Virus record (IMG/VR): IMGVR_UViG_3300006919_000200
Location: 1-34,008 of that record
From: a virus
DNA length: 34,008 nt
Reading direction: 5' to 3' (one strand)
In this document: piece by piece, positions 2,861 through 26,140 of the stretch
Numbering within the stretch: position 1 is the stretch's first letter
Layout of the letters: the number at the start of each line of letters is the position of its first letter
Notes under the pieces: model-generated
Database searches by the model: none
What the model saw: only the letters and a program-made list of their open reading frames with translations
Told to the model about the DNA's origin: nothing
Translations under genes and position numbers: made by a program

Positions 2861-2896
2861 TGTCTCCTATTAGAGACAAAATTTTTTTAATAGGAG
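2861..2896 (+). promoter_or_regulatory. RNR leader: terminator-like hairpin competing with an SD-masking hairpin
   Basis: Bases 2861-2866 (TGTCTC) pair with 2873-2878 (GAGACA) around a six-base loop. Three A and seven T follow, giving a short, rather weak intrinsic-terminator-like element. Alternatively, 2864-2872 (CTCCTATTA) pairs perfectly with 2888-2896 (TAATAGGAG), which holds the Shine-Dalgarno of RNR. The helix can extend four more pairs, two of them G-U. The two structures share bases and cannot coexist. This is seen directly in the sequence; regulatory use is inference. Confidence 0.45.
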
Positions 2897-9552: not shown

Positions 9553-10098
9553 ATGGGCGGTGGAGGCGGAAGCAGCACTACAATAGCTACATCTGGATTA
9601 ATAGATGATCTAAAACCAATAGTCACAAAACTGATTGGTGATAGAGTAACTGCATATGATGAAGATATAAAAGACCCTAGTAAAATTGTAGCAGACTTAT
9701 CACAACAACAGAAAGATTCGTTTACAGCATCTACAAACACAGCAAACGATATGATAAGTGGTCAAGGTGCATTTGACTTAAGTGGTAGATTAAATAGAGA
9801 TTTAGCTAATACACTGGGAACAGGCATGGGAGCCGCTTCAATGGGAGGAGCGTTAGGCTCTGCGAGATCTATGGCAGCTACTAATAAAGCTCTTGGTGAT
9901 GTGTCAATGAATTACTTAGAAAAAGAACAAGGTAATATATTGAAAGGATCTGAGTTATTAGGAAACGTAGGTACTGCTATGCAACAACAAAAACAAAAAC
10001 GGTTAGATGCTCCACATACAGCTACGTCTAGAATTTTTCAGTATCTTGGTGCTGGACCTACACAATCTGTACAAACTACTAAAGGTGGAGGAAAGTAA
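9553..10098 (+). CDS. Probable small virion/core protein, Gly-rich ends (181 aa)
   Basis: The SD AGGAG lies before the ATG at 9553. The N-terminus MGGGGGSST and a helical, Ala/Gly/Met-rich middle (GTGMGAASMGGALGSARSMA, about 92-111) are characteristic of a family of short virion proteins encoded just before the large internal proteins of marine podoviruses. The position is comparable to T7 gp14, a small core protein ejected into the outer membrane, but I cannot show homology. The C-terminal GGGK codons supply the SD of the next gene, which starts immediately after the stop. Confidence 0.6.
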   Translation: MGGGGGSSTTIATSGLIDDLKPIVTKLIGDRVTAYDEDIKDPSKIVADLSQQQKDSFTASTNTANDMISGQGAFDLSGRLNRDLANTLGTGMGAASMGGALGSARSMAATNKALGDVSMNYLEKEQGNILKGSELLGNVGTAMQQQKQKRLDAPHTATSRIFQYLGAGPTQSVQTTKGGGK

Positions 10099-11268
10099 AT
10101 GAACGTTAATAGCATGTCACCTCAACAAAGAGCAATGTTAATGGCTCAGCTTCAAAACTCTTCGTCTGTTATGCCTACCATGGTTGTACCAGCTCCAAAA
10201 GTAGCTGAAGGTCCAAAGACTGTTGTAATAAAACAATCTGAAAAACCGCAAATAAAAGCAAAACAAAAAAGTGAAATGGATCAACTTAGAATGGCAGCTA
10301 AGTTAGGAGCGCTTAACATGGGCATGGATGCTGGAATGAAATCTTTTGCACCTAAAGCTGCTGCAACTACTGCCGCCGCGGCTGCAAATCCTATAACTGC
10401 ACCATTACTTATGGCAGCTGCGCTGTTTGCTAAAGGAGGAACTAAAGTTCCTGGTGGACCATTATATAATTATGGTGGATCAAAAGTAAAATACTATGAA
10501 GAAGGAGAAAAGGCAGACGATGGTGTTAACTTACTTCCGTTAGGAATGCTAAGAACTCTAATGAACTATGGTGCAAAGCAAGGAGTTATTGGACCACGCG
10601 GAGGTGCTAATATTCCTGGTTATAGATACCAACATAGTCCTAAAATACATCCACCATATACTCCTAGAATGCAGGCTATAATGGATGCTAATAAAATGAT
10701 TGACAAAATGCAGAGGTACGATAAGATGTACCCTGTATCTGGTAGAGATAGATTTATATTAAATGAAATAAAAGCAGAACAAAAAACTCCTGAATACAAA
10801 AAGCGAATGGATAAGTTTGAAGAACGTATGATGGATACCTTTAAGAAACTAGAAAAAGATGGATACAATATTAAAGCTAGTAAAGCTCCTATTAAACAAG
10901 TTGATCTATCAGGTACGCTAAAAGATAACAAAATGGTAAAAGCAAAACCACCTCTTACTCCTGATCAAATAGAAGATAGAAAATATCTTAAGTCTGTTGG
11001 AGTTTTAGGAAGCGAGTTATTAAGTGATTATGGAGATGTAGGTAAGAAAGCTGTTACAGCTGCTGCGCCATTTGCAATGGGAATGCTTAACTTTCCTTTA
11101 GCTGTAGCTTCCTATCTTGGTAGCGCAGGACCTTTAAATGAAGGTGCAGAAAGACAAGGTAAAAATGTACCGTTAATGAAGCAAGGACCTGGTCCTATAG
11201 TAGCTGTTCCTGAATCGTTTGCGGGGATGAGTGACGAACAAATTAAATCGTTAACGTCAGGAGAGTAA
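10099..11268 (+). CDS. Probable internal virion protein with Ala-rich hydrophobic segment (389 aa)
   Basis: The start follows directly after the preceding stop. It has a Met/Gln-rich N-terminus, a basic stretch (about 50-65), a hydrophobic Ala-rich segment (about 92-115, ANPITAPLLMAAALFAKG) and a GGT...GGPLYNYGGSKVKYYEEG motif at about 113-135. The GG-x-YY motif is common in virion proteins of this gene neighbourhood. A second hydrophobic region (FAMGMLNFPLAVASYLG) lies near 323-339. Membrane-insertable segments in a core-cluster protein fit a role in the ejection channel. The end encodes AGGAG, the SD of the next gene. Confidence 0.55.
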   Translation: MNVNSMSPQQRAMLMAQLQNSSSVMPTMVVPAPKVAEGPKTVVIKQSEKPQIKAKQKSEMDQLRMAAKLGALNMGMDAGMKSFAPKAAATTAAAAANPITAPLLMAAALFAKGGTKVPGGPLYNYGGSKVKYYEEGEKADDGVNLLPLGMLRTLMNYGAKQGVIGPRGGANIPGYRYQHSPKIHPPYTPRMQAIMDANKMIDKMQRYDKMYPVSGRDRFILNEIKAEQKTPEYKKRMDKFEERMMDTFKKLEKDGYNIKASKAPIKQVDLSGTLKDNKMVKAKPPLTPDQIEDRKYLKSVGVLGSELLSDYGDVGKKAVTAAAPFAMGMLNFPLAVASYLGSAGPLNEGAERQGKNVPLMKQGPGPIVAVPESFAGMSDEQIKSLTSGE

Positions 11269-11270
11269 TT

Positions 11271-12161
11271 ATGGCCATAGGATTTAGAAGAGAATATACA
11301 CCATCAACAATAGATTTTAGTTATTTAGATGTTGATGTGCCAGACTTTAAGTCAACACCTAAAGTTGGTCAAACTTCGCAAGCTCCGGCTATGGATCAAT
11401 CAGGATCTAACGATTCCGGTACGTCTATGCAGCAATCTTATATACCTGCGATACCTCCTATGGCACCAATACAAGTTCCTGATAATTACGATTTTGATAA
11501 TACTGTTTACAATCCTGATACAAATGAGTTTCAAGCTCATACTTATCCAAAAATACCTACGTTACTAGGAACTAAAGCTGTTGAAAATACTATGATGTAT
11601 GGTAAGCCAAGTGGTTCTAGTCATTTAAATCCAGGTCAAGTAAAAAATATACAAGATAATGCTTTAGCCCATCAGGCAAACATATTAGAAACTACACAAA
11701 ATATGCCAGTTGGTTCGACAGCTATGGATATTCATAATATGGCTCATTTACAATCAACTGGATTTGACCAATATGGAAACTACCATCCTGAATACGATCC
11801 TGGTGTAGCTGCTCATGCAGCTCATATGGCTGCAATACCTACTTATGGAGCTCATTCATCTGGTTCGGCAGGAGGAAATATGATTGATGCTATTACAAAT
11901 GGTATTAACTTAGGTGGTCCTGATACTTCTGCAACAAATATAGGAGTTCCTTTCTTTGATGCTAATACAATGATGGGTATAAACAATCCAGCAGAAGGGT
12001 ATCAACCTAGTCCTTTTATAGAAGCTAATCAACATTTACTTACTCATGGTCCTGTTGATACAAGTTTTATACCTAGTTCAGGAGCTGAAGAAAGTTCGGG
12101 AGGAGGATCTAATATGAGTATTCAGGATAGTAGCGGCGGCGCGTCAGGAGGAGGTAAATAA
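11271..12161 (+). CDS. Probable internal virion protein, low complexity (296 aa)
   Basis: It starts two bases after the previous stop, behind AGGAG. The product is rich in Pro, Asn, Gly, Ser, Met and His, with few charged residues and no predicted membrane segment (for example YIPAIPPMAPIQVPDNYDFD). It ends in a Ser/Gly tail finishing GGGK. Such disordered proteins are often packaged scaffold-like components between small and large core proteins. Its function is not recognisable and the assignment rests on its place in the core-protein operon. Confidence 0.5.
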   Translation: MAIGFRREYTPSTIDFSYLDVDVPDFKSTPKVGQTSQAPAMDQSGSNDSGTSMQQSYIPAIPPMAPIQVPDNYDFDNTVYNPDTNEFQAHTYPKIPTLLGTKAVENTMMYGKPSGSSHLNPGQVKNIQDNALAHQANILETTQNMPVGSTAMDIHNMAHLQSTGFDQYGNYHPEYDPGVAAHAAHMAAIPTYGAHSSGSAGGNMIDAITNGINLGGPDTSATNIGVPFFDANTMMGINNPAEGYQPSPFIEANQHLLTHGPVDTSFIPSSGAEESSGGGSNMSIQDSSGGASGGGK

Positions 12162-12163
12162 TA

Positions 12164-14623
12164 ATGATGAACTTACCACCTATTGAAAAGATCGATAAGG
12201 TAGATCGATATGGTAATAAAGTTTCTATGCAATACGAAAACAACAGGCAAAAGAAACATAAAGTACAGGATCGACATGGTAATAGTTTGACACTTACATT
12301 TGCTTCACCTGATATTACTCCACCGCCTTCTATGACAGAAGTACCTAATTATTCTGCAAAAGGCGGAAACTCTAATAATCACCCTGGTAATCCAAAAGGT
12401 ACAGATACTGTGCCAGCTTGGCTTACACCTGGCGAGTTTGTAGTAAATAAAGAAGCAACACAAATGTATGAACCACTCATACGACAAATGAATAACCATG
12501 GACGACAAGTTCAAAATGAAAAAGCTATGTATGCTTCTCATGGTAGTTCAGTAGATGTAGATTGGATTACTGAAGATCTATTAGATAAACTACGATTTGC
12601 AGAAGTAGGCAACTTAAAACCTGAACAAATGGTTTCACCTGCTGGAGCTAGAGGACCATACCAAATTATGCCAGCTAACTTTGATGGTGGAGCTGGGTTT
12701 GGTACAACTCCTATTTCAGCTGCTGATGCTTTTAACGAAGAAAAGTCTAGAAGATTTGCAGCAGAATATTTAGCTGGAATACAAAACGCTTTTCCTGGTT
12801 GGAGCCCAACAGAAGTTTTACAAGCCTACAATTGGGGACCGGGTAATATGAGGAAATATAAGTCAGGCGCAGGAAATACTATGCCTACAGAAACTACTCA
12901 ATATCCTATGAAAATTTTAGGACCTGGTAAACAATATGCTAGCAATACTCCATTTAAGTTAAGTGATCTTTTTGGTATGTCTGCTTATGCTGCTGATACT
13001 AATAAACAGGTTCCTCAATTAGCTCAGAATAATGTAAGTGATATAAACTCTATTATATATGGTGGAACACAACCGGTTGATAACACTGTAAAACCAGCAG
13101 TAACCAATGATAGTCCTTTACCTGATTGGATGAAAGGATACCACACTTTTGGAGAAGAGGTTAAAAAAGATTTTGAATCTACTGGTGAACTACCTATTAT
13201 TTCTGAAAGCCAAATGGTTCCATTGTCAAGTGATAAAGGCGTAGAGCTTAGACCTTCTGATGTTAAGTCTAATGAACCTGGATTAAAGCAAGATCCTGGT
13301 ATGTCAAAGGAAGAAAAGTCTAGCATTGTACAAAAGATTAAAGAGCAGCTAGCGGCTAAGGAACTTGAGGAAGAAGAAAAGAAAAAGGCTGCTGAGGCAG
13401 GAGCTAATATTGCTGATGGCGATACAGGTGATGGAGATGCTGGCGCAAAAGAAATGAGTAAAGCCGAAAGGTTTTTAAAAGATTTATTAGGACCGTTGTT
13501 TAATAGATCAGAACTAAAACGAATGGCTATCTTTTATCTTGGCGCTAGAGCTATGAATAATACTCATGGAGATAGTTTAGCGTTTGCTCTTGAGAACTAC
13601 ATAAATCGAGTAGACTCTTTGGAGGAAGCTGCTTTAAGGTTTACATATAGTGAACAAGGACAAAAGCACACTGATAAATCTTTACAAGATTTTCTAGATA
13701 ACGACTATGATAGAAGTTTATTAATAGAAAAAGGATCACCAGTACGAAATACTGCTCAGTTTGTAATGGCTTATAGTTTGAAGAACCGTAATGTTAAAAG
13801 AAGACTTGAAAAAGTAGAAGTTGGAACAGGTAATAATAAAAGAACTTTACATAGAGATGTTAAAACTAATACCATTATACCCGATAGTTTTTGGAATGAC
13901 TGGACTACTAATGAAACATACGCTTATGGTACTGATAAATATAACGCAGAGTCAGCTAGATTAATTAAACTATTTGAAGATACTTTAAAAGCAGCTAGAA
14001 ATCTAAACTCTACTACAGTAAAAGATAGAACTGTAAAGAGTCCATACGATAAGTTAAACATTCCAAAAGAAGCACAAAAGATGGCAGCCTTTGTAATGCA
14101 AAAAGGACCAATAGATGCACAACGAAAAACTGGTGTTGATGCAAACTTGTTTGGAGCTGCTATAAACAATGCTTATTCTTTAGCGATGCAAGATGCTATG
14201 GCTGATGAAGTAGAGTTTACAGACTTATTACCTTATGTAAAGTATTTACAGTTTGAAACTAAAACTAATGCTAACCCTAAATTATTTGAAAGTGAACTTG
14301 ATACTCCTACAGAAAAGAAAACAGGTGTAGGCGATCCTATTAGTATGAGAGAGTTTGACACCTTAAAAGAAGGTATCGTTACAATGATGTTAACAATGCC
14401 AGACCCTGATGGAGAACCAGGTAGTAAACCTTTTGCTACTATGGATCCTGATACAGCATTTAATATTTATGTGACAGACACTGAAGAGCGTTGGAATAGT
14501 TTAACTAAAAATGAAAAAGGTGTTTGGAGAAGCAGAGCATTAGGTAAAGGTAAAGGTAAAACTTCAGGGTTCTTTGAGTTTTTGCGTGCCAGATATTTAC
14601 TTAATATAGCAGGAGATGATTAA
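12164..14623 (+). CDS. Internal virion protein with lytic transglycosylase (SLT) domain (819 aa)
   Basis: The SLT domain at about 135-240 shows catalytic E147 in FAEVGN, then SPAGARGPYQIMP at 158-170 and AYNWGPGN at 221-228, matching the E, GxxQ(I/M)MP and AYN-GPG signatures of soluble lytic transglycosylases. It would cut peptidoglycan glycan strands as the DNA-translocation channel crosses the wall, like the N-terminal domain of T7 gp16. Upstream, GTDTVPAWLTPGEFVVNKEA (79-98) is a motif common in phage structural proteins. Residues of about 385-420 are highly charged and helical. Either ATG, at 12164 or 12167, may be used. The stop overlaps the next start (TAATG). Unlike T7, the SLT domain sits on its own core protein and not on the largest one. 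Confidence 0.82.
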   Translation: MMNLPPIEKIDKVDRYGNKVSMQYENNRQKKHKVQDRHGNSLTLTFASPDITPPPSMTEVPNYSAKGGNSNNHPGNPKGTDTVPAWLTPGEFVVNKEATQMYEPLIRQMNNHGRQVQNEKAMYASHGSSVDVDWITEDLLDKLRFAEVGNLKPEQMVSPAGARGPYQIMPANFDGGAGFGTTPISAADAFNEEKSRRFAAEYLAGIQNAFPGWSPTEVLQAYNWGPGNMRKYKSGAGNTMPTETTQYPMKILGPGKQYASNTPFKLSDLFGMSAYAADTNKQVPQLAQNNVSDINSIIYGGTQPVDNTVKPAVTNDSPLPDWMKGYHTFGEEVKKDFESTGELPIISESQMVPLSSDKGVELRPSDVKSNEPGLKQDPGMSKEEKSSIVQKIKEQLAAKELEEEEKKKAAEAGANIADGDTGDGDAGAKEMSKAERFLKDLLGPLFNRSELKRMAIFYLGARAMNNTHGDSLAFALENYINRVDSLEEAALRFTYSEQGQKHTDKSLQDFLDNDYDRSLLIEKGSPVRNTAQFVMAYSLKNRNVKRRLEKVEVGTGNNKRTLHRDVKTNTIIPDSFWNDWTTNETYAYGTDKYNAESARLIKLFEDTLKAARNLNSTTVKDRTVKSPYDKLNIPKEAQKMAAFVMQKGPIDAQRKTGVDANLFGAAINNAYSLAMQDAMADEVEFTDLLPYVKYLQFETKTNANPKLFESELDTPTEKKTGVGDPISMREFDTLKEGIVTMMLTMPDPDGEPGSKPFATMDPDTAFNIYVTDTEERWNSLTKNEKGVWRSRALGKGKGKTSGFFEFLRARYLLNIAGDD

Positions 14624-17600
14624 TGTCAGAACTTGTAAGAACGCTAAGAGATTCCGGCAAGTTACCTAAGTATGGATCAGTTGAAAGTAACCCATTTGCG
14701 TTAACAAACGACTACATTTTTATTGATGCTGATACTATAAAGTCTAAGTCTGATCCTACTTTTAGTGGAAGATTAAAAGGTATTGACGCTCCTGAAGTTG
14801 CAAAATTCTTTTCTCCTACTGATACTGAAGGTTCTACGGCTGGTGGTTATAGAGCCGGCGCTTCATTAATGGAGCTTGCACAAAAGCAAGGGTTTACTAA
14901 TGTTGTTAGAACTGGAGAGCTAGATGCGTTTGATAGAGAGCTTGTAGAATTACGAGACGAAAGAGGTAGAGACTTTGTAGATACTCTAATGAGAACTGGA
15001 GTAATGGAACCTACTAGATACTCTACAGCTCAGCATATTAAATACGCTGATATGGCTAAGATCTTTGGTGTAGCTGATTTAGGTGAAGACTTCGATATAG
15101 CTCGTAACGCTATTGCTGATACGATCGCTGAAGAAACTCAGCACCATATGGTATTCAGAGACTTAGCTACCACTGAACAGCAGTTAGCTTATGGTGGTGG
15201 CTATTATATGCCTGGTTCCGTAGCTATTAGAGATCCTAAAAGAACTCTACAAAATAAAGCAAAGAATCCGTTATCTGAAGCATGGGATATAGGTTGGGTT
15301 GGTGCATACGAAGGACTGTCAGGGTTTTTAGCAATGGGAGGAGAAAGCACTGGTATTAAATGGGCTGAAGAATTAGGAGAAGCTTCAGTATACAGACAAC
15401 AAAGATACCTAGCTAATAAACCTGAAATTGTTACTAGCTTTAAAGATATTGATGGTATATTTGGAAAGCAAGGCGCATTTCAGTATTTATTAAATAACGC
15501 TGTAATATCTGTTCCCTATATGGCAGCTACTGCAGCTGGTTATCTTGCTGCTGGTCCTACTATGGGTGCGTCTATGTTGCTTCCTATAAGTTTGTATACA
15601 GGTACTATATATAATGATCAGCCTGAAGATGGAAAGAATGCTGGCTTAGCTATTGCTGGTGGTTTAACTCAATCTGTTTTAGATAGACTTGGTTTGCAAC
15701 TGCTAATTAGAGGTGGTGCAGGTACTATGCTCACCAAAAAAGGTAGAGACGAAATAATAGAGGCATATGCAAAGAAAGCTAATGTAAGTCCGGAAGAAGC
15801 TAGCAGAGTAGTACTAAATACTACTAGAAAAGAGATGGCTAAACTTGCTAAGGACGCAGCTGCTTTTGCTAAACAACAGATTTCTGCTAGAAATGTATCT
15901 AGAAACTTAATAAAGAGAATGGTAATAGGTGGTGCTGGTGAAGGTACTACTGAATTTATGCAAGAAGCTATTGGCTACACTGCTGCTCATGCAGGTAACG
16001 GGTTTAAAGATTGGGATGCCAATGAGTTTAATACTAGATTAATTGATGGTGCAATCGCTGGTACATTTATAGGTAAAGCTTTTACAATCCCAGGTACTAT
16101 GTGGGATTATGGTGTATGGAGAGACGTTCAATATAAACTGTCCCCTAGTACAGGAAAGCAAATATCTGAAGCGGGTGTTTCTGCAAATGAAGATATTCAA
16201 AAACATGGTAGACAGTTTAACATTCAACAAAACAACGCCAATCTTCAAGCAGCTATGGATACAGCTAAACAAAGAATTAGTACTCTTACTAAATCTATAA
16301 GTGGTTTAGAGAAAAAACTTAAGGTAGCTAAAGCAAAAAATAAAAGAGAACAGTTAAAGTCTGATATAGATAGACAAAGAGAAAAGCTAGAAGAAGCAAA
16401 GTCGCTTTTAAATTTTGAAGATATAAACGATAGAAGCGCAAGACACGAAAAAGCTTTACAAAAAAGAACTGTTACTGAATTTAGAAACGATTTATGGAAT
16501 AACCTGCCAGCCTTATGGAGAGGTTTGACTAGGCATATATTTCCTTTTGATTTACAATTAAAAGCTGATAACACAGCTGAACAAATAAAGAAAGATAAAT
16601 CGTTAGTTGGTGATGTTCCAGCTATTAGGCATTTAGCTGAAGCTCATAGTGGTAACCTTGAAAAGTCTATGACTGGTATGCATTATGAAAACCGCATGCA
16701 CCATTATATTTCAGCGCTTAAAGAAAAATTAAAAGACGTTAACACTACACTTTTTGCTTTTGGCAGAACAGATACTAGAGCAAGTCGATTAAAATTTAGT
16801 GAAGAGTTTTATGATGCATTTGTTAAGGCTAGAGAAAACGCTAAAGCAAAAGGTCGTGAAAACAATATTAAGTGGGACGAAGATTTAGAAGGACCATTTA
16901 GAGAGCACTTACCTGAGTTTAAAGCTTTAATAGCTAGAATGGAAAAAGTTGCTAACGATATTTTTAATATGCAAAAGAAATATAATCCGTTTCTTGGTAA
17001 GATAGCTTACTTTTTAGCTAGAAGTAGAACTCTTGATAAAGAAAAAATTGCTCGTGATCGAGGTACATTTGAAAAATTATTGTCAAAGCACTTTGGTTAT
17101 TCAGATAAAAAAGCTAGAGAACTTACTACAGCTATTTTAGCTATGGATTCTACTGATGGCTTTGTAGATACTGGAATGTTAGATTACGATGGTAACTTTT
17201 CTGTTACATCAAGGCATACCTTTAGACCTAAAGCACAAAAGAAAAGAGAGCTTGGAATATCAGATATATCTGACTTTAAAGATTTTTTAGAAAACGATTT
17301 GTTTACTAACATGTCTAACAACCTTAAGTCTGCTGTAAGATATACTACTATAGAAGAGTATGTTGGATCTAATAACGAAAAAATAAATTACTGGTTAGAT
17401 AAAGCTGAAAAGCAACTAATAAAATCTGGTATGCCTGAAGACGAAGCTAAAGCTCTTGTAGATCAAATAGCTTTTAGAATGAAGAGATACTATGATGCTC
17501 AGTCAGGTAACTATAAACGAACTCATAAGCCTGTATGGGAGTTTGTTAAAAAGAATCTTATCTTTGTTACTACTGTAACACAACTACCTTTAGCTACTGT

Positions 17601-18816
17601 ATCTAATATCGTAGAACTAGGTACATCATTAAGAGGCCTTAGTAAAGATCAGATCTTTGGTACAAAAGAGGAGCTTAAAAGAGGAAAATTACAACCTGGT
17701 CAAAGAGGTAGTATTGCCGCAATAGTTTATACATTTGTAGAAGAATTTTACAATACTATACTTAGAGCATATAGCACTGTTGCTATGAAACCTATGCTTG
17801 ATCGAAGAACTAGTTACGGTTATCAAAGAAACAAAGAGCTAGGGTTTATGAGCTTTGAAGTTGGTGCTGCTCATACAACAGGTGTTAGTGAAGTTGGCCA
17901 TTTACGACAAAGAATACTTGATGTGTATTTTAAAGTTATTGGTTTGCAACAATGGACTAATGCTATGAGAGCGGGTAGAGCAGCTATTGCAGCTGATTAT
18001 ATCCTTGATAAGGTAGCAACTATAGCAGAACATAGAACTGCTAAGATTCAAGAGAAAGATCCTATATGGACTAACGAAATGGATGAGGCTCAAGAATCTT
18101 TGCGTAACCTAGGAATAGATCCTAACTTTATGGTTAAGTTTGTTATAGATCCGGAGATGCAGCTTAATAAAACACATGTTAATACTTTTAAAACTAATAT
18201 GCGTGAAGGAGAGTTTAACTTTGTTAATGAAGCTGTTGTATTACCTCAGTCCGCAAACAGACCTTTGATATTCCAAGATCCTCGGTTTGCTTTATTCACA
18301 CAGTTTCAAGGATTTATATCTACGTTTACTGCTTGGCATTTACCTAAAATGTGGAATGATCTTGTAAAACGTGGTACTCCTGGTATGAAGTATAACGCTT
18401 TTGCTACAGCAATGTCAATGATTGCATTAGGCTTTTTATCTCAGCATTTAAAAGACTTACTTAAGTTTGGCGAACCAAGCCCATACTTTACTGGTATGGA
18501 ATACATGAGAAGAGGCGTAGGTGCTAGTGGATTGCTAGGTACAGGAGAACGATTAATTGACTTTGCTTTTCCTATGTATGATAAGCGATACCCTAATACT
18601 ACTATGTGGGCAATTGGTACTGTTGCAGGAGAATCTGCAGCGGTAAGTAAAGCTTTAAGACTTGGTGGTATATCGTATGACGTTGCAGCAGGAGACAAAC
18701 CTCCTGAAACTCTATATAAACTATCGCCTTTTAGTCAAACATTATATAAACATCTTCACCCTGACAACGTATCTTGGGATTATGATCGTTTCCCTGATGA
18801 AGTAATTAATCAATAA
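14623..18816 (+). CDS. Giant internal virion protein with N-terminal staphylococcal-nuclease-like domain (1397 aa)
   Basis: Residues of about 30-128 form an SNase-like domain. FIDADTI (33-39) supplies metal ligands D35/D37; GRLKGIDAPE (49-58) supplies R50, D55 and E58; DAFDRELV (101-108) supplies R105. The spacings R50-D55-E58 (+5, +8) and D101-R105 (+4) equal those of S. aureus nuclease (R35-D40-E43; D83-R87), so the catalytic set looks intact. Residues of about 290-345 and 430-495 contain hydrophobic and Gly-rich segments, including GGAGEGTTEFMQEAIGY, that could insert into membrane. About 540-600 is a charged coil. The C-terminal third includes RPLIFQDPRFALFTQFQGFI and RRGVGASGLLGTGERLIDF, patterns of large phage core/polyvalent proteins. 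It would probably be ejected with the DNA. I have not seen a nuclease on this class of protein described. Confidence 0.75.
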   Translation: MSELVRTLRDSGKLPKYGSVESNPFALTNDYIFIDADTIKSKSDPTFSGRLKGIDAPEVAKFFSPTDTEGSTAGGYRAGASLMELAQKQGFTNVVRTGELDAFDRELVELRDERGRDFVDTLMRTGVMEPTRYSTAQHIKYADMAKIFGVADLGEDFDIARNAIADTIAEETQHHMVFRDLATTEQQLAYGGGYYMPGSVAIRDPKRTLQNKAKNPLSEAWDIGWVGAYEGLSGFLAMGGESTGIKWAEELGEASVYRQQRYLANKPEIVTSFKDIDGIFGKQGAFQYLLNNAVISVPYMAATAAGYLAAGPTMGASMLLPISLYTGTIYNDQPEDGKNAGLAIAGGLTQSVLDRLGLQLLIRGGAGTMLTKKGRDEIIEAYAKKANVSPEEASRVVLNTTRKEMAKLAKDAAAFAKQQISARNVSRNLIKRMVIGGAGEGTTEFMQEAIGYTAAHAGNGFKDWDANEFNTRLIDGAIAGTFIGKAFTIPGTMWDYGVWRDVQYKLSPSTGKQISEAGVSANEDIQKHGRQFNIQQNNANLQAAMDTAKQRISTLTKSISGLEKKLKVAKAKNKREQLKSDIDRQREKLEEAKSLLNFEDINDRSARHEKALQKRTVTEFRNDLWNNLPALWRGLTRHIFPFDLQLKADNTAEQIKKDKSLVGDVPAIRHLAEAHSGNLEKSMTGMHYENRMHHYISALKEKLKDVNTTLFAFGRTDTRASRLKFSEEFYDAFVKARENAKAKGRENNIKWDEDLEGPFREHLPEFKALIARMEKVANDIFNMQKKYNPFLGKIAYFLARSRTLDKEKIARDRGTFEKLLSKHFGYSDKKARELTTAILAMDSTDGFVDTGMLDYDGNFSVTSRHTFRPKAQKKRELGISDISDFKDFLENDLFTNMSNNLKSAVRYTTIEEYVGSNNEKINYWLDKAEKQLIKSGMPEDEAKALVDQIAFRMKRYYDAQSGNYKRTHKPVWEFVKKNLIFVTTVTQLPLATVSNIVELGTSLRGLSKDQIFGTKEELKRGKLQPGQRGSIAAIVYTFVEEFYNTILRAYSTVAMKPMLDRRTSYGYQRNKELGFMSFEVGAAHTTGVSEVGHLRQRILDVYFKVIGLQQWTNAMRAGRAAIAADYILDKVATIAEHRTAKIQEKDPIWTNEMDEAQESLRNLGIDPNFMVKFVIDPEMQLNKTHVNTFKTNMREGEFNFVNEAVVLPQSANRPLIFQDPRFALFTQFQGFISTFTAWHLPKMWNDLVKRGTPGMKYNAFATAMSMIALGFLSQHLKDLLKFGEPSPYFTGMEYMRRGVGASGLLGTGERLIDFAFPMYDKRYPNTTMWAIGTVAGESAAVSKALRLGGISYDVAAGDKPPETLYKLSPFSQTLYKHLHPDNVSWDYDRFPDEVINQ

Positions 18817-18828
18817 CTGGAGAAATAC

Positions 18829-21800
18829 ATGAGTAGATTTTCAACTGCAGCTGGACAGAGAAGAAAAATTGAAGCTACAAAAGATCTTTTCTATAATCAA
18901 GCTGGTCAGTCAGAACTATTAAAGAAGTTAAACGCTCAGCTTATAAAGGGACGAACACCTGAAGGACAAGCGGTAGATACTTCTTACTATGAAGGGTTTG
19001 GGTTATCTCCTGAAGTAGAACAAACCCCTATATACGATAGTTTAACAGAAGAAATAGTTGATCCAGACCAGGGAAGAACTGGACCCGCAGTAGTATCAAA
19101 GCTAAAAAGCAAAGCTCAGGAAGCTGGTTTATTAAAACCACCTATGGATCCTGATCGAGCTGCTAGACTTGACGACTACTTTAGAAAAGAAGAAGACGAT
19201 AAACGTCAACAAGCATACGACGATCTTATTGCTATGCAAAGAAACCAAGAAAGAGTACCAGGAGTTTCTGAAATAAGACCAGACTTTGCAGCTAGTTTTA
19301 AGGATAAGCAAGCAAGAAGAGATTATTTAGGTAAAGCTTCTCTTCCAATCCGTAGAACTCTGCAAGAAATACATAATGATCATAAAGAAGGTGAGCTACA
19401 AAACCGTACTATATCTAACTCGCCTTTATCTTATATTAAGAATGATGGCTTTGGAGAACTAATTAGACGCGGAGATCTTTTGACTAAAGCTTTTTTAACT
19501 ACGATAACCGATGACATAATAGATAAAGCAGATCTTAAACAGCAAGTTGCTAAAGATCAAATAAGATTTAGAGATAAAGATGGTAACCTTTTAAAGAGAG
19601 AACTTACACCTGAAAACTCTCCTAAAGGCGTAAGCACAAAGCAATCTTACTTAGAGCCTTATGAAATTTCTGCGCATATTGAGTCTCAGGTACTATCAGC
19701 TATTGATGAAGGACTAGTTGATTCACCTATTGTACGGAATATATTAGGTAAATTAAAAGATCCTTATTTAAAAGATGGTGAACTTACAGAGTCTGGAAGA
19801 GAGCAGTTGATAAAAGACTACGCTGAAGAGCAAGGGTTATCAATGGCAGAAGCTACAACAGAAGTTGATGGTGTTCTTGTAGATGAAAGGTTTTACGGAA
19901 GAGTATCTTTAGACGATAGAATAAGACAAGCTTTGAGATCGCCTGAAAGAAAGGCAATGGTAGCTGCAGGTAAAAGAACTAATGCTCGAACTCTTAAGAT
20001 AAAAGCTGAAGAGATAATGAAGCGTAGAGCTAAGAAGAAAGAGCAAGGTAAAGCTCCTGATCCGCTGCCGTTTATGTTTATACTAGAAGCACTACACCCT
20101 AACATAAACTTTAATGAACTAAATCTTAAAGGTATCTTGTTTGATCCTGATGGATTTAATGCTGGTATACTAGGAGTTAATCCATATATCAGACGTAAAA
20201 GCGGTGCAAGCCCTAGACGAATGATGATTGATCCAGTGTTTGGAAAGATCATGAGCTTTGTTACTGAAAAGTTTTTATTGCAAACTCAGTTTATACCTAC
20301 TGTAGGTGAAGCGCATCCTGATGCTGAAGCTTTAATACGAGAAGGCGTACTAGTTAGAACTCCTACTCCTGATACTGATAACATAACCCCTGACGACAAA
20401 AGAGATATTGGGTCTTATCTTGAAGCTCCTAGTATTGAAACAAGCGAAACAGGTGGCGTAACTTTATTAAAAGGTAACAGTCAACTTGGCAGAGAAATAT
20501 TTAAAGAGTGGAAGAGAGAACAAAACAGAAGATTAGGTAGACCGACTGATGAGTACTCATTGAAAGGAGTTCCTGAATCCTCGTTTGAAATAGTAGGTAC
20601 ATTTGCTAGAGAGCTTTATGCTGAAGTTAACCCTGACTTATATCAGAAAGAAACTCTTAATGATCAGACATACTACAATTTAACTGATAAAGGATTACAA
20701 GCTTTAAATGCTGCTGCTCGTGCAGCTCCTGACGCTTTTAGAAACGTAGAAAAAATGCCTAGGTTAGTTCCGCCAACTGATTTTATAGGAGAGAGAACAC
20801 CTACTAAGCAAACTACTACTGTTGTAAATAGGTATATAAGACAGATCGAACAGTCTAGAAAAAATATGAGTTCTATTGCGCATAAGGTAGACACATTAAG
20901 AAGTAAACTTATGAAGCAAGCGGCTGTTCAAGTTTTATCTAATGCTAAATCACAAACAGAGTTAGACAAGCTTGGAGACTTCTTTGGATTAGGACCTGAA
21001 AAGTATATTGAATTTAGAGGTACCTTTGATAAAAAAGTTTTTGAAATACAGAAGTATGCAGGCTTAGAAAAACGAGCTGCGCAAGAAAGAGTATATGAAA
21101 CGTATCGTCCTGATTACGAGATGGATAAACAGTTTGCTAGATTCTTAGAGTTTATGCATACAGTAGGCAGATACTCTGATGGCGCATACTATTTAGACTT
21201 TGTAGTACAGAACTTGCAAGGACGAATGCACGTTGATCAGACTAGATTTAATCCACAACTTATTCCTTGGGTTAGATATATTACTGGTGGCGTTGAGCCT
21301 GTTCAGTTTAATCCTTATACTGCTATAGGTGATGAGCATAATATATTTAAAGAGCATATGGCTAAGCAGTTTATTCCTGCAGCCAAAGGAGATTTACCTA
21401 ACGAAGCTATTAAAAAGTTTGATAGAGAATTTAGTAAACATCTTAATAACGAAACTGATAGTTTGTTTTCAGCTATTATTTCAGAAGGAGCTACTGTTGA
21501 ATCTAGTCTTATGAGTGACGAAGATAATAAAAGATACGACAAACTTCTTTCAGAAATTAAAATCAACGTTAATCCTGAAATGTATCAGGGTGAAATGGCT
21601 GAAATGGATCCTAACACTATAAGACCTAAAGGTAGTTCGTTATCAAATCCGTTAGCTGACATAGTTCCTAATGAATACATCGCAGTTCCAGATGAAGTTG
21701 CTCAAATGCCACCTCTTAATATACCTGATTCTTTATTAGCAAGAACTAGAAAGGGTGGTATGAAAGGACCTAGTGAAGGACTTGAGGGCTTTGCCAAGGT

Positions 21801-23544
21801 TGAAGCTGCCATTGAACTAAAGCGTTATGCAGATGCTTGGAAAAATAAGACGCCATTTAGAACTAATATAGCCATTGAGTTGGACGGTACAACTCATGGT
21901 CCTTCTTCTTGGTTGGCTATGCTTGGTGCTATTAAGTCTGCATTTAGAAGTGGGGTACTAAGAAAGGAAGGAGCTAAAAAAGTTTTAGATGACATGGTAG
22001 TTGCAGAACTTTTAGAAGTTGATGGATTACCTGCTGATATGCAGGACCAGGCAGCTGGTGATTTACGTGATGGATTAGCAACTTATATGCTAGAAAATGG
22101 TAATGATTATGCTAGTGCTTACCATGCAGATACTGAGTTTAGTCCTATATTATATTCTATTTTACAAAAAGCTGTCTTGGATCGTGATAACTTTCTTAAG
22201 AAACCTCCTATGACTTTGTCTTATGGTCAGTTACTTGGTAACCTTAGAAAAGCTATATATGATGTTATATATACTGGTGAGCAAGCTACTGCTATTAACG
22301 AGCTCATTGAAACAGAAGGCTTTAGAGATAGTTTAGCTAAGCAAGGTAAGAACGAACCAGCTGAAGAAGTTGTAGCTACTTACTTACATAACATATTAGC
22401 TGATGCTATTGATATGGAACTACATCCTGCAGTTGTTCAAGTCGGTCAGTTGTTAAGAGCTAACAATGCAATAGCTATGTTAAGCGATGAAATCATGACG
22501 GTTAAAAATGCTTTAGGCATTGATAACTATATTGGTGCAAAAGAAAGAGTAGTTAAGAGAGACACTGATGGTCAAGTTATGATTGGGGAGTTTCATTTAC
22601 AGACTGAGGGATCAGGCTCTGCAAGAAAGCCGATCGTGTTATATAAGTCTGAGCCAGCAGGAAGCGCTTTAAGAGATGGGATTCCTGGTGGATGGGGAAG
22701 AGGTAGAATTATACCTGCTATTATCCAAGGTATTGATGGAGCTTGGATGAACCTAATGTTTAGAGGTGAATCATGGAACGCTCTTGAAGGTAACTACATG
22801 CTACCTATTATGGATGCTGTTAAGACAGATCTTAGAGGAGCAGCTGAAGTTAGACGTCAAGCAAATAAGAACTGGTGGAAAGTTATTGAAGAGTATGATC
22901 CATGGACAAGTCTATTTATGGAATGGCAACCTGCCGCAGTAAATAAGTTTTACAATAAGATAGGTTATAATGCTAAAGATAACAAGTGGACTGAAAACCC
23001 TAAACAAATTATTCCGTTTAGAGATGGATTAACAGGACCTAAGTATGCTGAGCTGCCTCCGTTAAGAGTAACTCCTACTGCTCAAGGAATTAAAGGCTTA
23101 CAAGCTGCTGATTTATCTGGACCTTATAAAGGATTTTGGTATTTAACTCATCAGACAGCACCTTCAGAGTTTGTTGGGTATGGCGAGTTATCTTTACAAA
23201 ACTTACAAAAACTTATTGATGATACTATGGAGTTCAGAGCTAGAGATAAAGGCGAAGATATACAAGAGTATAATAATAAAAAGTGGGAAGCAGCTGGAGT
23301 GTTAGCTAAAAAGGTAGCTCAAGCTGAAGCTGCTAAAATATACGGTTCTAGTAAAGATAGAACACCACTTGATGGTATGAGTAGAGAGTACATGAAACAA
23401 TTCTTTGACAGACTTGTAGCCGTATTAGATATTGTAAAGCGTAATAAGATTAATACTGTTACGCTCAACAAAGAGAAGCAAGTACTAATACAGTTAGAGA
23501 AGAGTAAAAAGAGTAAAGGCGGAATACTTCAAGTTAACCTATAA
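18829..23544 (+). CDS. Giant virion-type single-subunit RNA polymerase (1571 aa)
   Basis: SD CTGGAG precedes the ATG. The core at about 780-1350 carries the T7/N4 single-subunit RNAP motifs in order. NLQGR with R799 is the TxxGR/DxRGR motif. IELDGTTHGPSSW has D1019, equivalent to T7 D537. KKPPMTLSYG has K1124 and Y1132, at the exact spacing of T7 K631 and Y639. IQGIDGAW (1299-1306) corresponds to T7 VHSQDGSH. LPIMDAVKTD has D1329, equivalent to T7 D812. The helix following D1329 also aligns with T7 after HDSFGT. About 780 N-terminal and 220 C-terminal residues are unassigned. Size, location after the core proteins and separation from the ordinary RNAP fit an N4-like virion RNAP that is packaged, ejected and transcribes early genes. 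Two T7 histidines are replaced (Q1300, M1328). Polymerase fold confidence is high; packaging is inferred. Confidence 0.82.
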   Translation: MSRFSTAAGQRRKIEATKDLFYNQAGQSELLKKLNAQLIKGRTPEGQAVDTSYYEGFGLSPEVEQTPIYDSLTEEIVDPDQGRTGPAVVSKLKSKAQEAGLLKPPMDPDRAARLDDYFRKEEDDKRQQAYDDLIAMQRNQERVPGVSEIRPDFAASFKDKQARRDYLGKASLPIRRTLQEIHNDHKEGELQNRTISNSPLSYIKNDGFGELIRRGDLLTKAFLTTITDDIIDKADLKQQVAKDQIRFRDKDGNLLKRELTPENSPKGVSTKQSYLEPYEISAHIESQVLSAIDEGLVDSPIVRNILGKLKDPYLKDGELTESGREQLIKDYAEEQGLSMAEATTEVDGVLVDERFYGRVSLDDRIRQALRSPERKAMVAAGKRTNARTLKIKAEEIMKRRAKKKEQGKAPDPLPFMFILEALHPNINFNELNLKGILFDPDGFNAGILGVNPYIRRKSGASPRRMMIDPVFGKIMSFVTEKFLLQTQFIPTVGEAHPDAEALIREGVLVRTPTPDTDNITPDDKRDIGSYLEAPSIETSETGGVTLLKGNSQLGREIFKEWKREQNRRLGRPTDEYSLKGVPESSFEIVGTFARELYAEVNPDLYQKETLNDQTYYNLTDKGLQALNAAARAAPDAFRNVEKMPRLVPPTDFIGERTPTKQTTTVVNRYIRQIEQSRKNMSSIAHKVDTLRSKLMKQAAVQVLSNAKSQTELDKLGDFFGLGPEKYIEFRGTFDKKVFEIQKYAGLEKRAAQERVYETYRPDYEMDKQFARFLEFMHTVGRYSDGAYYLDFVVQNLQGRMHVDQTRFNPQLIPWVRYITGGVEPVQFNPYTAIGDEHNIFKEHMAKQFIPAAKGDLPNEAIKKFDREFSKHLNNETDSLFSAIISEGATVESSLMSDEDNKRYDKLLSEIKINVNPEMYQGEMAEMDPNTIRPKGSSLSNPLADIVPNEYIAVPDEVAQMPPLNIPDSLLARTRKGGMKGPSEGLEGFAKVEAAIELKRYADAWKNKTPFRTNIAIELDGTTHGPSSWLAMLGAIKSAFRSGVLRKEGAKKVLDDMVVAELLEVDGLPADMQDQAAGDLRDGLATYMLENGNDYASAYHADTEFSPILYSILQKAVLDRDNFLKKPPMTLSYGQLLGNLRKAIYDVIYTGEQATAINELIETEGFRDSLAKQGKNEPAEEVVATYLHNILADAIDMELHPAVVQVGQLLRANNAIAMLSDEIMTVKNALGIDNYIGAKERVVKRDTDGQVMIGEFHLQTEGSGSARKPIVLYKSEPAGSALRDGIPGGWGRGRIIPAIIQGIDGAWMNLMFRGESWNALEGNYMLPIMDAVKTDLRGAAEVRRQANKNWWKVIEEYDPWTSLFMEWQPAAVNKFYNKIGYNAKDNKWTENPKQIIPFRDGLTGPKYAELPPLRVTPTAQGIKGLQAADLSGPYKGFWYLTHQTAPSEFVGYGELSLQNLQKLIDDTMEFRARDKGEDIQEYNNKKWEAAGVLAKKVAQAEAAKIYGSSKDRTPLDGMSREYMKQFFDRLVAVLDIVKRNKINTVTLNKEKQVLIQLEKSKKSKGGILQVNL

Positions 23545-23776: not shown

Positions 23777-26140
23777 CTATGAAAAGAAATAGTCACTATC
23801 AGCTATTCCTTTTATATCTAGATCTCCTAACTTATAGTTGTAATTAAACTTCTCAGGTTCAAGCAATAGCATTTCTGCTATGTCTTTATAGAAATCATCA
23901 TGATCATACATTTTAATGAACACTTCCTTAGTTAAACCTAACAAGCTAGCTACATCACAAGCGTGAGTAGAAAATGAGTCATGAATAGCAGCAAAGTCTC
24001 CGTCCCAGTGATGGATAATTAGAGCCATATGTGCTGCGTCCATACTGTGAATGAAGTTTGGACTTATACCTGAGGCAAAGCCACCAGGACTAGGTATCTT
24101 TTTACCATACACTAGCCTATGTTCTTTACCTACATGCTGGATCCTCATATCAGAGATCCAACTTTTCCACTTGACGTCTTCCATTACATAGTTTTCGTAC
24201 CGTACTGGAAAGCCAGATGGAGTTTGCCAGTCAACTACAGGTTCCTTTAACTCAGCAATAATGTGGTTTGCTATAGCTTGCAGGTAACTCATAGTCTCTA
24301 ACGGGCCTGGACACACCTCATCGATAGCTTTTATAAGCTGAAATGCTAAGTCGTTACAGTCACTCATAGTAATATTGTACTTACTATGGAATCCTTCGGC
24401 ATAACAGTCAGCATACATGTTCAAAGCTATGGCTAGGTGGCCCGCAGAGTACGCTCTAGTCATCGCTCCGCGTTTCGATATACCTTTCCTTATGTGTTTC
24501 ATAGGCATGTCTCTCTGCGCGAACCAGGAGGGCACGCGAGCTATCAATGCTTTAGCTGTTTGCACATAAAAGTCCTTAGGTATGTCAGTTTTTACTAGTC
24601 CCACTAGTTCTCCGGCCTTTTTATCCTTAGATATAGCAGCTAAGTGCTGCCAGCCGTTGTTAGAACCGTCGATCGGGACAGGAAGATCGATGTAGTATAC
24701 ACCATCTTTAGACTCTTGATCCCATAGGCTACACCATGCCTTGCAACAAGCAAGAAAACCTACAGGCTTCTCAGCTTTTTCATGGATAGTACGATTTACC
24801 CATGTATTTCTAATGAAGTCTTCGTTATTAAGAACCCATTTAACTCGATCATCAATGGTCATTTTATCTACAGAAATATCTGTAAGACCTTCATTATCTA
24901 ACGCTGATTTATAATCGGCTTCACACCACTCCGGTATATTATCGATTGAATACGCCTGGTTGTATGAACATGCTGTATGCACAGCAAAGTAATACAAACC
25001 TTCTTCGGTCATTGGTTGTGCATTAGCAAACTTCAATAGACCTCGCTCCATATCTTTACCTTGGTAGTTTAAATACGATTCACGATAATACAATCTCCCC
25101 CTATAATCTGCATCTACATACTGAAAGAATATTTTATCTTTCAACGCTTCTGCTTTTTGAACAGTCATATTATATGCGTCAAACTTACTACGGTTTTTAA
25201 GTAATACTAACTTAGCGTTCCAATGCGTAGCAGCTTCATCGTACTTAGCTTGAGCTCGTATCAGTGGCTTTTTGTTAGGTTTATTACGTAACTTATTAGT
25301 CAGTCGTCGTAGTTCACCATAGTATTTCTTTTCAAGAGACTTATTACCTAACTCAGGTTTAAATACAACCTCATTCCAGTATAAGTTCTTGCCTTCTAAC
25401 TCTTTGTTGTTACCAAATATACAGTATCGGTAGTTCTTACCAGTTTCATCAGCAACTTTTAGAGTTTCAGTAACAAACTTACGCTTGTTTTTAAGTACAG
25501 CTTCTAATATATCGGAGTCTATTGTCCAAGCTGTACGTTGTAGTTTATTTATTGCATCAATAAATGGTTGGTCAAGCAATAACTTAAAGTCCTCGCTCTT
25601 ATCGTATCCCCAGTGTTTTATTACTGGGAATCCATTGTCTTGAAACAGATTACTTATACGCTTTATCTTAGTAGTAGATGTGTTTTGTATAAGCTCATTG
25701 ACTACCTGGTCAGGTAGCGATCCTATGTTTAGCCACTTATCAGATGTCTCAATCATATATGGTGCACGGCTGTAAGGTTTCTTACCAACCGGGTTTGCTT
25801 CCCATTTAATCTGAGCTTCTGTAGGTGCCCTCACTATTTTAATATATCCACACTCATAGAAAGCTTCAAGGATTAGGTCGCCGACTGTTACATCGGCTCT
25901 AAATCCTAACTCAACTCCTTTCTGTAGCAACACGTTCTTACCTATAGCTACTGAGGCTGCAGTAAGTTTACATGTTGCTGATTCAGATGTTGATGTTTTT
26001 CTAAAGTGATACTGCAGTATTGTTAACGCATCATACACAACTCTCTTCGGTTCCAGCTTGTGTTCGTTCACCAGCCGTACTGCCCACCTCTGAGGTGTAC
26101 TTATAATTTTCTGTTCTAAATACTCTATCACATTCTGCAT
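23777..26140 (-). CDS. T7-like single-subunit DNA-dependent RNA polymerase (787 aa)
   Basis: The SD AGGAG lies 7 bases before the ATG at 26140. Motifs in order are DADYRGRLYY (343-352, with R349 in the role of T7 R425), PVPIDGSNNGWQH (D491 ~ T7 D537), KRGAMTRAYS (K556, Y564 ~ K631, Y639), PNFIHSMD (H698 ~ H784) and AIHDSFST (H720, D721 ~ H811, D812). The C-terminus DSDYFFS resembles the T7 foot ending in FAFA. At 787 residues it is shorter than T7 RNAP (883), mostly in the N-terminal promoter-recognition half. It should transcribe middle or late genes from phage-specific promoters, which I could not identify. The motif B region (about 24421-24540) is about 54% GC, whereas a sample elsewhere in the gene is about 32%. 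Confidence 0.95.
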   Translation of the reverse strand: MQNVIEYLEQKIISTPQRWAVRLVNEHKLEPKRVVYDALTILQYHFRKTSTSESATCKLTAASVAIGKNVLLQKGVELGFRADVTVGDLILEAFYECGYIKIVRAPTEAQIKWEANPVGKKPYSRAPYMIETSDKWLNIGSLPDQVVNELIQNTSTTKIKRISNLFQDNGFPVIKHWGYDKSEDFKLLLDQPFIDAINKLQRTAWTIDSDILEAVLKNKRKFVTETLKVADETGKNYRYCIFGNNKELEGKNLYWNEVVFKPELGNKSLEKKYYGELRRLTNKLRNKPNKKPLIRAQAKYDEAATHWNAKLVLLKNRSKFDAYNMTVQKAEALKDKIFFQYVDADYRGRLYYRESYLNYQGKDMERGLLKFANAQPMTEEGLYYFAVHTACSYNQAYSIDNIPEWCEADYKSALDNEGLTDISVDKMTIDDRVKWVLNNEDFIRNTWVNRTIHEKAEKPVGFLACCKAWCSLWDQESKDGVYYIDLPVPIDGSNNGWQHLAAISKDKKAGELVGLVKTDIPKDFYVQTAKALIARVPSWFAQRDMPMKHIRKGISKRGAMTRAYSAGHLAIALNMYADCYAEGFHSKYNITMSDCNDLAFQLIKAIDEVCPGPLETMSYLQAIANHIIAELKEPVVDWQTPSGFPVRYENYVMEDVKWKSWISDMRIQHVGKEHRLVYGKKIPSPGGFASGISPNFIHSMDAAHMALIIHHWDGDFAAIHDSFSTHACDVASLLGLTKEVFIKMYDHDDFYKDIAEMLLLEPEKFNYNYKLGDLDIKGIADSDYFFS

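Follow-up and report, generated by a model that had tools for sequence, protein, structure and literature searches.

The question raised by positions 9553-23544 of an ocean virus genome is whether a virus other than a member of the Schitoviridae could carry an RNA polymerase (RNAP) in its particle. The record (IMG/VR IMGVR_UViG_3300006919_000200; 34,008 bases, referred to here as the window) has its structural genes on the plus strand, from the left end to position 23544, and its replication genes, together with a T7-like RNAP, on the minus strand, from the right; end repeats are absent from the 34,008-base window. The first-pass annotation, made from the sequence alone, had proposed that the block encodes a three-enzyme ejection apparatus. 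The block is real, and the annotation's reading of the sequence proved right on every testable point; its interpretation is supported in part. We consider it likely that the block encodes ejection proteins of a podovirus of the type of Roseobacter phage CRP-7 (MK613349), the closest isolate, and that its last product, P0006, is a compact N4-type virion RNAP (vRNAP) without a C-terminal domain, which would start transcription before the T7-like RNAP.

P0006 as a predicted single-subunit RNA polymerase

Family searches with P0006 gave weak matches only (phrog_414, E 0.0037; the N4 vRNAP family phrog_2206, E 0.016), so that structure and profile comparison are decisive for its identity. The relevant features are as follows; 17/17 refers to aligned homologs from group 1, the group of relatives to which the window belongs.

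18829..23544, plus strand: P0006, 1571 amino acids (aa), predicted N4-type virion RNA polymerase (motifs, profile, fold; 0 Cys)
20110..23541, plus strand: predicted RNA polymerase domain of P0006, residues 428-1571 (AlphaFold2 model, fold searches)
21208..21276, plus strand: motif T, residues 794-816 (QNLQGRMHVDQTRFNPQLIPWVR); R799, N808-Q810 and R816 invariant in 17/17; R799 pairs with N4 R424
21877..21900, plus strand: motif A, residues 1017-1024 (ELDGTTHG), with predicted catalytic Asp D1019; invariant in 17/17; pairs with N4 D559
22198..22227, plus strand: motif B, residues 1124-1133 (KKPPMTLSYG), with K1124 and Y1132; invariant in 17/17; matched to N4 and T7 by eye
22807..22827, plus strand: motif C, residues 1327-1333 (IMDAVKT), with predicted catalytic Asp D1329; D1329 invariant; pairs with N4 D951 at low confidence

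According to its AlphaFold2 model (pLDDT 71.7, pTM 0.68), the region of residues 428-1571 folds as a single-subunit RNAP. In Foldseek, all 50 of the 50 listed PDB matches are single-subunit RNAPs (T7, N4 and mitochondrial), among them T7 RNAP (1.6e-11) and the N4 mini-vRNAP (3.4e-11). The VIA-align Z-score is 16.5 for N4 (686 residues) and 16.1 for T7 (525 residues), with the best match of each kind at Z 16-18. Among viral structure predictions, most named matches are RNA polymerases, including a virion-encapsulated one from Vibrio phage phi50-12, and the first two entries bear the name coil containing protein. The RNAP domain extends to the C-terminus of P0006, and with 1571 aa the protein departs from the N4-type plan of about 3,500 residues with a C-terminal domain.

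The group-1 proteins are divergent (36-55% identical or below), and their invariant residues (17/17) comprise R799, M800, H801, N808-Q810 and R816 in the first region, D1019, G1020, H1023 and G1024 in the second, K1124, M1128-L1130, Y1132 and G1133 in the third, and D1329 and A1330 in the last. We take these to be motifs T, A, B and C of single-subunit RNAPs; the counterparts are GRMQ..NPQ, EADGVTNG, KNPLTITIYG and IFDG in N4, and GRVY..NPQ, DGSCSG, KRSVMTLAYG and HDS in T7. A profile of the 17 homologs matches that of nine Schitoviridae vRNAPs with a probability of 94.7 (E 6e-8), as against 0.3 for the reversed alignment and 0.8 for a profile of 15 T7-like RNAPs; with N4 alone the probability is just 18.6. 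The alignment of the two profiles pairs Q810 with N4 Q434, in addition to R799/R424 and D1019/D559, while D1329/D951 falls in a low-confidence part and motif B is out of register. In sequence kinship, then, P0006 is nearest to the N4/Schitoviridae virion RNAPs and not to the T7-like RNAP of the opposite strand, which bears out the proposal that the genome encodes a second, distinct single-subunit RNAP of N4 virion type.

It is very improbable that the RNAP call is an artefact of modelling, in which one large helical protein was matched to a large helical fold. The structural matches have modest TM-scores, 0.30-0.39 relative to the length of the query, and pLDDT is below 50 at 219 of the 1144 modelled residues, but the profile evidence is independent and has catalytic residues in register, every listed PDB match is of one fold, and even the poor model made for group 2 (see below) ranks the RNAP fold first.

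No match to P0006 was found when viral contigs were scanned with the single protein or when 50,697 phage records were searched by tblastn, and no RNAP was returned when profiles built from each of the three groups of relatives were compared with PDB sequences. A MAFFT pair alignment of P0006 with CRP-7 gp33 left the motifs unaligned and was discarded.

Conservation beside the T7-like RNA polymerase

P0006 is encoded next to, and convergent with, the T7-like RNAP gene:

23777..26140, minus strand: P0007, 787 aa, T7-like RNA polymerase, convergent, outside the block (Pfam RNA_pol, E 2e-53; 12 Cys)

Viral contigs were scanned with two T7-like RNAPs, that of the window and that of CRP-7, which gave 78 loci, and with P0005 and its CRP-7 counterpart gp34, which gave 6 more. 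The loci and the window provide 86 sequences with a T7-like RNAP gene, several of them from the same contig. In 52 of the 86, an open reading frame (ORF) of at least 200 aa on the opposite strand adjoins the 3' end of the RNAP gene; the remaining 34 have less than 1,250 bases there. All 52 readable neighbours are proteins of the position and type of P0006, including CRP-7 gp33, and the 45 complete ones have 1,163-1,689 aa. By BLAST they fall into group 1 (the window; 24), group 2 (CRP-7; 16) and group 3 (12). Motif alignments and cysteine counts used 36 of the 52, after contig copies, near-identical sequences and most fragments were dropped. A later scan with group 1 gave 22 loci, mostly on contigs found before, and bacterial genomes gave 45 pattern matches, with no relative among them.

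Groups 2 and 3 have invariant residues of their own (D685, R774, Y782, G783 and H986-D987-A988 in 8/8 of group 2; D724, G729, K815, Y823, G824 and D1014 in 11/11 of group 3). Simple patterns for motifs A, B and C occur in 20, 20 and 20 of 20 complete group-1 proteins, in 15, 15 and 15 of 15 from group 2, and in 10, 8 and 7 of 10 from group 3. Taken together, the two groups match the group 1 profile with a probability of 66 (E 5.7e-5), with motif C in register and motifs A and B out of it. An AlphaFold2 model for groups 2 and 3, which we use as support only, has single-subunit RNAPs in its first 11 rows in Foldseek (best E 2.8e-3, none at 1e-3) and in its first 42 rows in VIA. We assign groups 2 and 3 to the relatives of RNAPs with moderate confidence.

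CRP-7 gp33 is annotated as hypothetical. As far as the accessible text goes, the 2019 paper on CRP-7 names ORF30 alone as an RNAP (PMC6918029), and the portions of the literature covered by our searches contain no description of gp33 as a vRNAP. A search of IMG/VR with an N4-vRNAP profile, according to the part of that study available, yielded 287 contigs with the vRNAP as sole hallmark (PMC10654107); some of these could belong to the present lineage.

The block and its other predicted enzymes

As the first-pass annotation had stated, the block consists of six contiguous, tightly spaced genes. They are plus-strand ORFs with almost no gaps between them: starting at the ORF that precedes the block, the spacings are 9, 0, 2, 2, -1 and 12 bases. 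Besides P0006, they are as follows:

9553..10098, plus strand: P0001, 181 aa, small protein free of cysteine, encoded at the start of the block (ORF; 0 Cys; no convincing family match)
10099..11268, plus strand: P0002, 389 aa, cysteine-free protein (ORF; 0 Cys; weak match to phrog_37426, E 0.0062)
11271..12161, plus strand: P0003, 296 aa, cysteine-free protein (ORF; 0 Cys; no family match)
12164..14623, plus strand: P0004, 819 aa, lytic transglycosylase (SLT), putative ejection protein (Pfam SLT; 0 Cys)
12560..12877, plus strand: SLT catalytic region of P0004, residues 133-238, including E147 (Pfam, sequence)
14623..18816, plus strand: P0005, 1397 aa, large putative virion protein with an N-terminal SNase-like domain (phrog_6958; 0 Cys)
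14710..15027, plus strand: SNase-like domain of P0005, residues 30-135 (invariant residues; Pfam SNase in relatives)

The three largest products carry three different enzymes, as had been claimed: an SLT (Pfam), an SNase-like nuclease (invariant residues) and an RNAP (fold, profile and motifs). P0004 matches PF01464 (SLT) over residues 155-238 (E 2.5e-8; 33.9 bits against a cut-off of 21.3), and E147 lies just upstream of the matched stretch, within FAEVGN...VSPAGARGPYQIMP. The domain is also present in the equivalent protein of a relative, G003. The family of the lytic domain varies between groups, and a 1056-aa protein of locus L086 has no Pfam match. In CRP-7, gp35 (L002 25696-29367) has a Pesticin/lysozyme-type domain where the window and G003 have the SLT.

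P0005 itself has no Pfam SNase match; at E values up to 1, PF00565 (SNase) is found in 8 of the 24 relatives aligned, the strongest match being at 3.6e-5. Six residues, D35, D37, T38, R50, E58 and R105, are invariant in 24/24, and we take them to correspond to D19, D21, T22, R35, E43 and R87 of Staphylococcus aureus nuclease, whose catalytic residues are D21, R35, E43 and R87. The domain may act on nucleic acid. A further match of P0005 is to phrog_6958 (E 3.5e-18), a family of virion structural proteins. In Pseudomonas phage JB8, a gene of this family ends the plus-strand cluster, and small opposite-strand genes follow it. The P0005 family is common to all three groups of relatives (hhalign E 1e-38 and better).

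Cysteine content and probable virion placement

Each of the six block ORFs contains 0 Cys, and the preceding and following ORFs contain 2 and 12, so that the cysteine-free run coincides with the limits of the block. The same signature is seen in the relatives: the vRNAP-like proteins have 4 Cys in 45,998 aa (36 proteins), the SNase proteins 0 in 38,970 aa (31) and the lytic proteins 0 in 13,946 aa (21; these counts take in second proteins longer than 600 aa and third proteins longer than 400 aa). The T7-like RNAPs have 461 in 28,892 aa (36 proteins; 1.6%), and 69 other ORFs have 462 in 35,891 aa. Among known proteins, T7 gp15 and gp16, N4 gp50-52 and the N4 major capsid protein (MCP) have 0 Cys, and T7 gp14 has one. 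The P0006 gene closes the structural cluster, like N4 gp50, and we infer a virion location for P0006 from this last-gene position and from the absence of cysteine.

Candidate promoters and the proposed order of transcription

A 16-base site, TGTCTCCTATTAGAGA, recurs in the window and in three relatives:

2861..2876, plus strand: T7-class promoter-like site TGTCTCCTATTAGAGA, 27 bases upstream of the ribonucleotide reductase gene (conserved site)

With at most one mismatch it occurs four times in G002, four times in G003 and three times in G001, with 0 occurrences in one shuffle of each; it is absent from CRP-7 at the same threshold. In window orientation, G001-G003 each have three sites directed toward the structural arm and one toward the replication arm (orientations were worked out by hand, and one G001 site has two mismatches). 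The exact, partly palindromic sequence is found at 21 distinct places, in front of late genes as well as of the replication arm, and 7 of the 21 lie 22-30 bases upstream of an ORF of 577-592 aa (in the window, the ribonucleotide reductase). Further positions include L099 13330, L103 5649, L104 7844, L105 2876 and others.

We take TGTCTCCTATTAGAGA to resemble T7-class promoters, and it is probably the promoter of P0007. In that case P0007 is itself encoded downstream of such a promoter, and its first expression requires a different polymerase. P0006 would fill this role, although host RNAP may do so instead.

Directly after the leftward site, about 100 bases of noncoding DNA are conserved in 10 loci (L099 13348-13480; L103 5499-5631 and L122 5808-5940, both on the minus strand; and 7 more). 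This stretch has a G-rich start, a TATAC..GTATA dyad in several loci, GGGTGATT and CCACC, with perfect 6-7-bp hairpins with 3-base loops in 3/10. It could be the site of an early promoter or an origin. RNA structure is not claimed for it (RNAalifold gave 4 pairs, none covarying).

Proposed mechanism and competing roles for P0006

The best available mechanism, in which packaging, activity and timing are what we infer, would run as follows. P0004 would open the peptidoglycan, and P0005 would serve as a large ejection protein carrying a nuclease domain. Entry of P0006 into the cell would accompany or precede that of the DNA. P0006 would then initiate transcription of the phage genome, at a minimum in the cluster that includes the T7-like RNAP gene, and may also contribute to pulling in the DNA. 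Later, both arms would be transcribed by the T7-like RNAP from its own promoters (TGTCTCCTATTAGAGA). On balance, though with less assurance than for the block itself, we favor the wider proposal that a second marine podovirus lineage, of the CRP-7 type, injects a compact vRNAP along with nuclease and muralytic proteins, after which a single-chain T7-like RNAP takes over, so that the two-polymerase cascade starts without host RNAP.

Several observations weigh against P0006 being such an N4-type vRNAP. The large C-terminal domain of N4 gp50 is absent here, the 45 complete relatives having 1,163-1,689 aa against 3,500 in gp50. The AlphaFold2 model of groups 2 and 3 is poor (pLDDT 49.8). Hairpins like those of N4 (perfect 7-bp stems with 3-base loops) show no excess in the five genomes or parts examined, some early regions having single candidates. 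In phage CRP-4, gp38 and gp39 have 0 Cys and match no RNAP profile, so that the cysteine-free signature marks ejection proteins generally and is not specific to RNAPs.

Two other observations of this kind would suit an account in which P0006 descends from an RNAP but has lost catalysis and now serves in ejection or structure, the early genes being left to host RNAP as they are in T7: group 2 has Arg at the position of the motif-B Lys, and a sigma70-like site beats all its 60 shuffles in one of ten upstream regions, among which no conserved sigma70 promoter was seen. Schitoviridae vRNAPs double as ejection proteins, to judge from the available part of one study (PMC12633501), so that P0006 could persist for ejection alone. 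We nevertheless think this account unlikely, given that all motif residues, with both catalytic Asp, the Lys and the Tyr, are invariant in 17/17 divergent group-1 proteins, which a mere scaffold would not be expected to keep.

Alternatively, P0006 might be an active RNAP synthesized late and functioning inside the infected cell, without being borne by the particle. Virion proteomics was found for no member of the lineage, and the string 'proteom' is absent from the accessible text of the CRP-7 paper (PMC6918029). This alternative is quite unlikely in view of the tight operon that P0006 shares with virion and lytic proteins, of its lack of cysteine, a trait of N4 gp50 and T7 gp15-16 but not of the T7-like RNAPs that these genomes encode, and of its sequence kin, which are RNAPs known to be packaged.

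Relation to known systems

G001, G002 (58,114 bases, with a 55-base direct terminal repeat) and G003 share MCP, portal and TerL with CRP-7 (47-58% identity by piece). The CRP-7 portal (L098 4712-6946) belongs to phrog_1216, the family of the N4 portal (E 2.4e-83), and its MCP belongs to a different PHROG from that of N4; tblastn with N4 MCP, portal, vRNAP and gp51 against G001-G003 and the window gave no match at E 0.01. The portal family hints at an ancestry of portal and vRNAP in common with the Schitoviridae, and a sister relation is possible.

The likenesses to N4 are that P0006 is in the same sequence subfamily as gp50, that the RNAP comes last in a cysteine-free operon (gp52-gp51-gp50), that the portal (in CRP-7) is in the same PHROG, and that a further T7-related RNAP is presumably made after entry (RNAPII in N4). 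Unlike in N4, the proteins neighbouring the RNAP carry SLT and SNase-like enzymes, the T7-like RNAP is a single chain, the MCP is in another PHROG and the contigs are of 56-60 kb. In the accessible portion of one study, the N4 vRNAP is divided into N-terminal, RNAP and C-terminal domains (PMC12633501).

The first-pass annotation likened the block to the T7 gp14-15-16 core, and this holds in part. In order, size and Cys content, on which the comparison is based, both are contiguous operons for internal virion proteins, putative ones in the window, which increase in size and include a muralytic domain, and gp15 and gp16 are cysteine-free, which fits an ejection operon. However, the endolysin domain of T7 is in the last protein, gp16, and the SLT is in the first large protein here; the RNAP in last place is the N4 layout. 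T7 core proteins are not known to include an RNAP or a nuclease. The closest parallel in layout is CRP-7 gp35-gp34-gp33, with the same order of lytic, SNase-like and RNAP-like proteins and a convergent T7-like RNAP, gp30; it differs in its Pesticin/lysozyme-type lytic domain and in the group-2 character of gp33.

It was also overstated that T7-type ejection and N4-type early transcription are united here for the first time. Schitoviridae already combine the two in function, since the available part of the phage DEV structural paper describes DEV gp73, gp72 and gp71 as the functional equivalents of gp14, gp15 and gp16; it also presents the virion RNAP as a feature unique to the Schitoviridae family (PMC10925440). 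Coupling of an ejectosome to a vRNAP is thus already known in schitoviruses, and what is new here is the lineage and the anatomy: an N4-type RNAP in a lineage other than Schitoviridae, which includes a cultured phage where the gene product bears the label hypothetical. If this is true, RNA polymerases carried in the virion extend beyond Schitoviridae, and the prediction is directly testable since CRP-7 has been isolated in culture. The C-terminal domain of the N4 enzyme is regulatory and restrains its RNAP; P0006, without this domain and less than half the size, would offer a simpler system for the threading of a polymerase through the tail, its refolding and activation, and transcription-driven DNA entry. 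A vRNAP would also explain the first expression of a T7-like RNAP gene that seemingly lies behind its own type of promoter.

Other candidates and minor observations

A putative vRNAP outside Schitoviridae has also been described in Stenotrophomonas phage StenR_269 (OR838459; 2,270 aa, 0 Cys), where, according to the part of the report available, the proposal was based solely on its size, its helices and the absence of Cys (PMC10747016). Despite an N4-like FDGYNLGLN string, this protein has no profile match to the three groups or to Schitoviridae. Zobellviridae were considered as vRNAP carriers and rejected, CRP-4 gp38 and gp39 matching no RNAP profile.

In G001, a manA RNA motif (Rfam RF01745, 71 bits) lies at L103 865-1069 on the minus strand. 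The same genome has three perfect GCGCGAT/ATCGCGC hairpins (L102 17611 and 19947; L103 3387), flanked by A5, which is T5 on the strand of the replication genes, and these are probably terminators.

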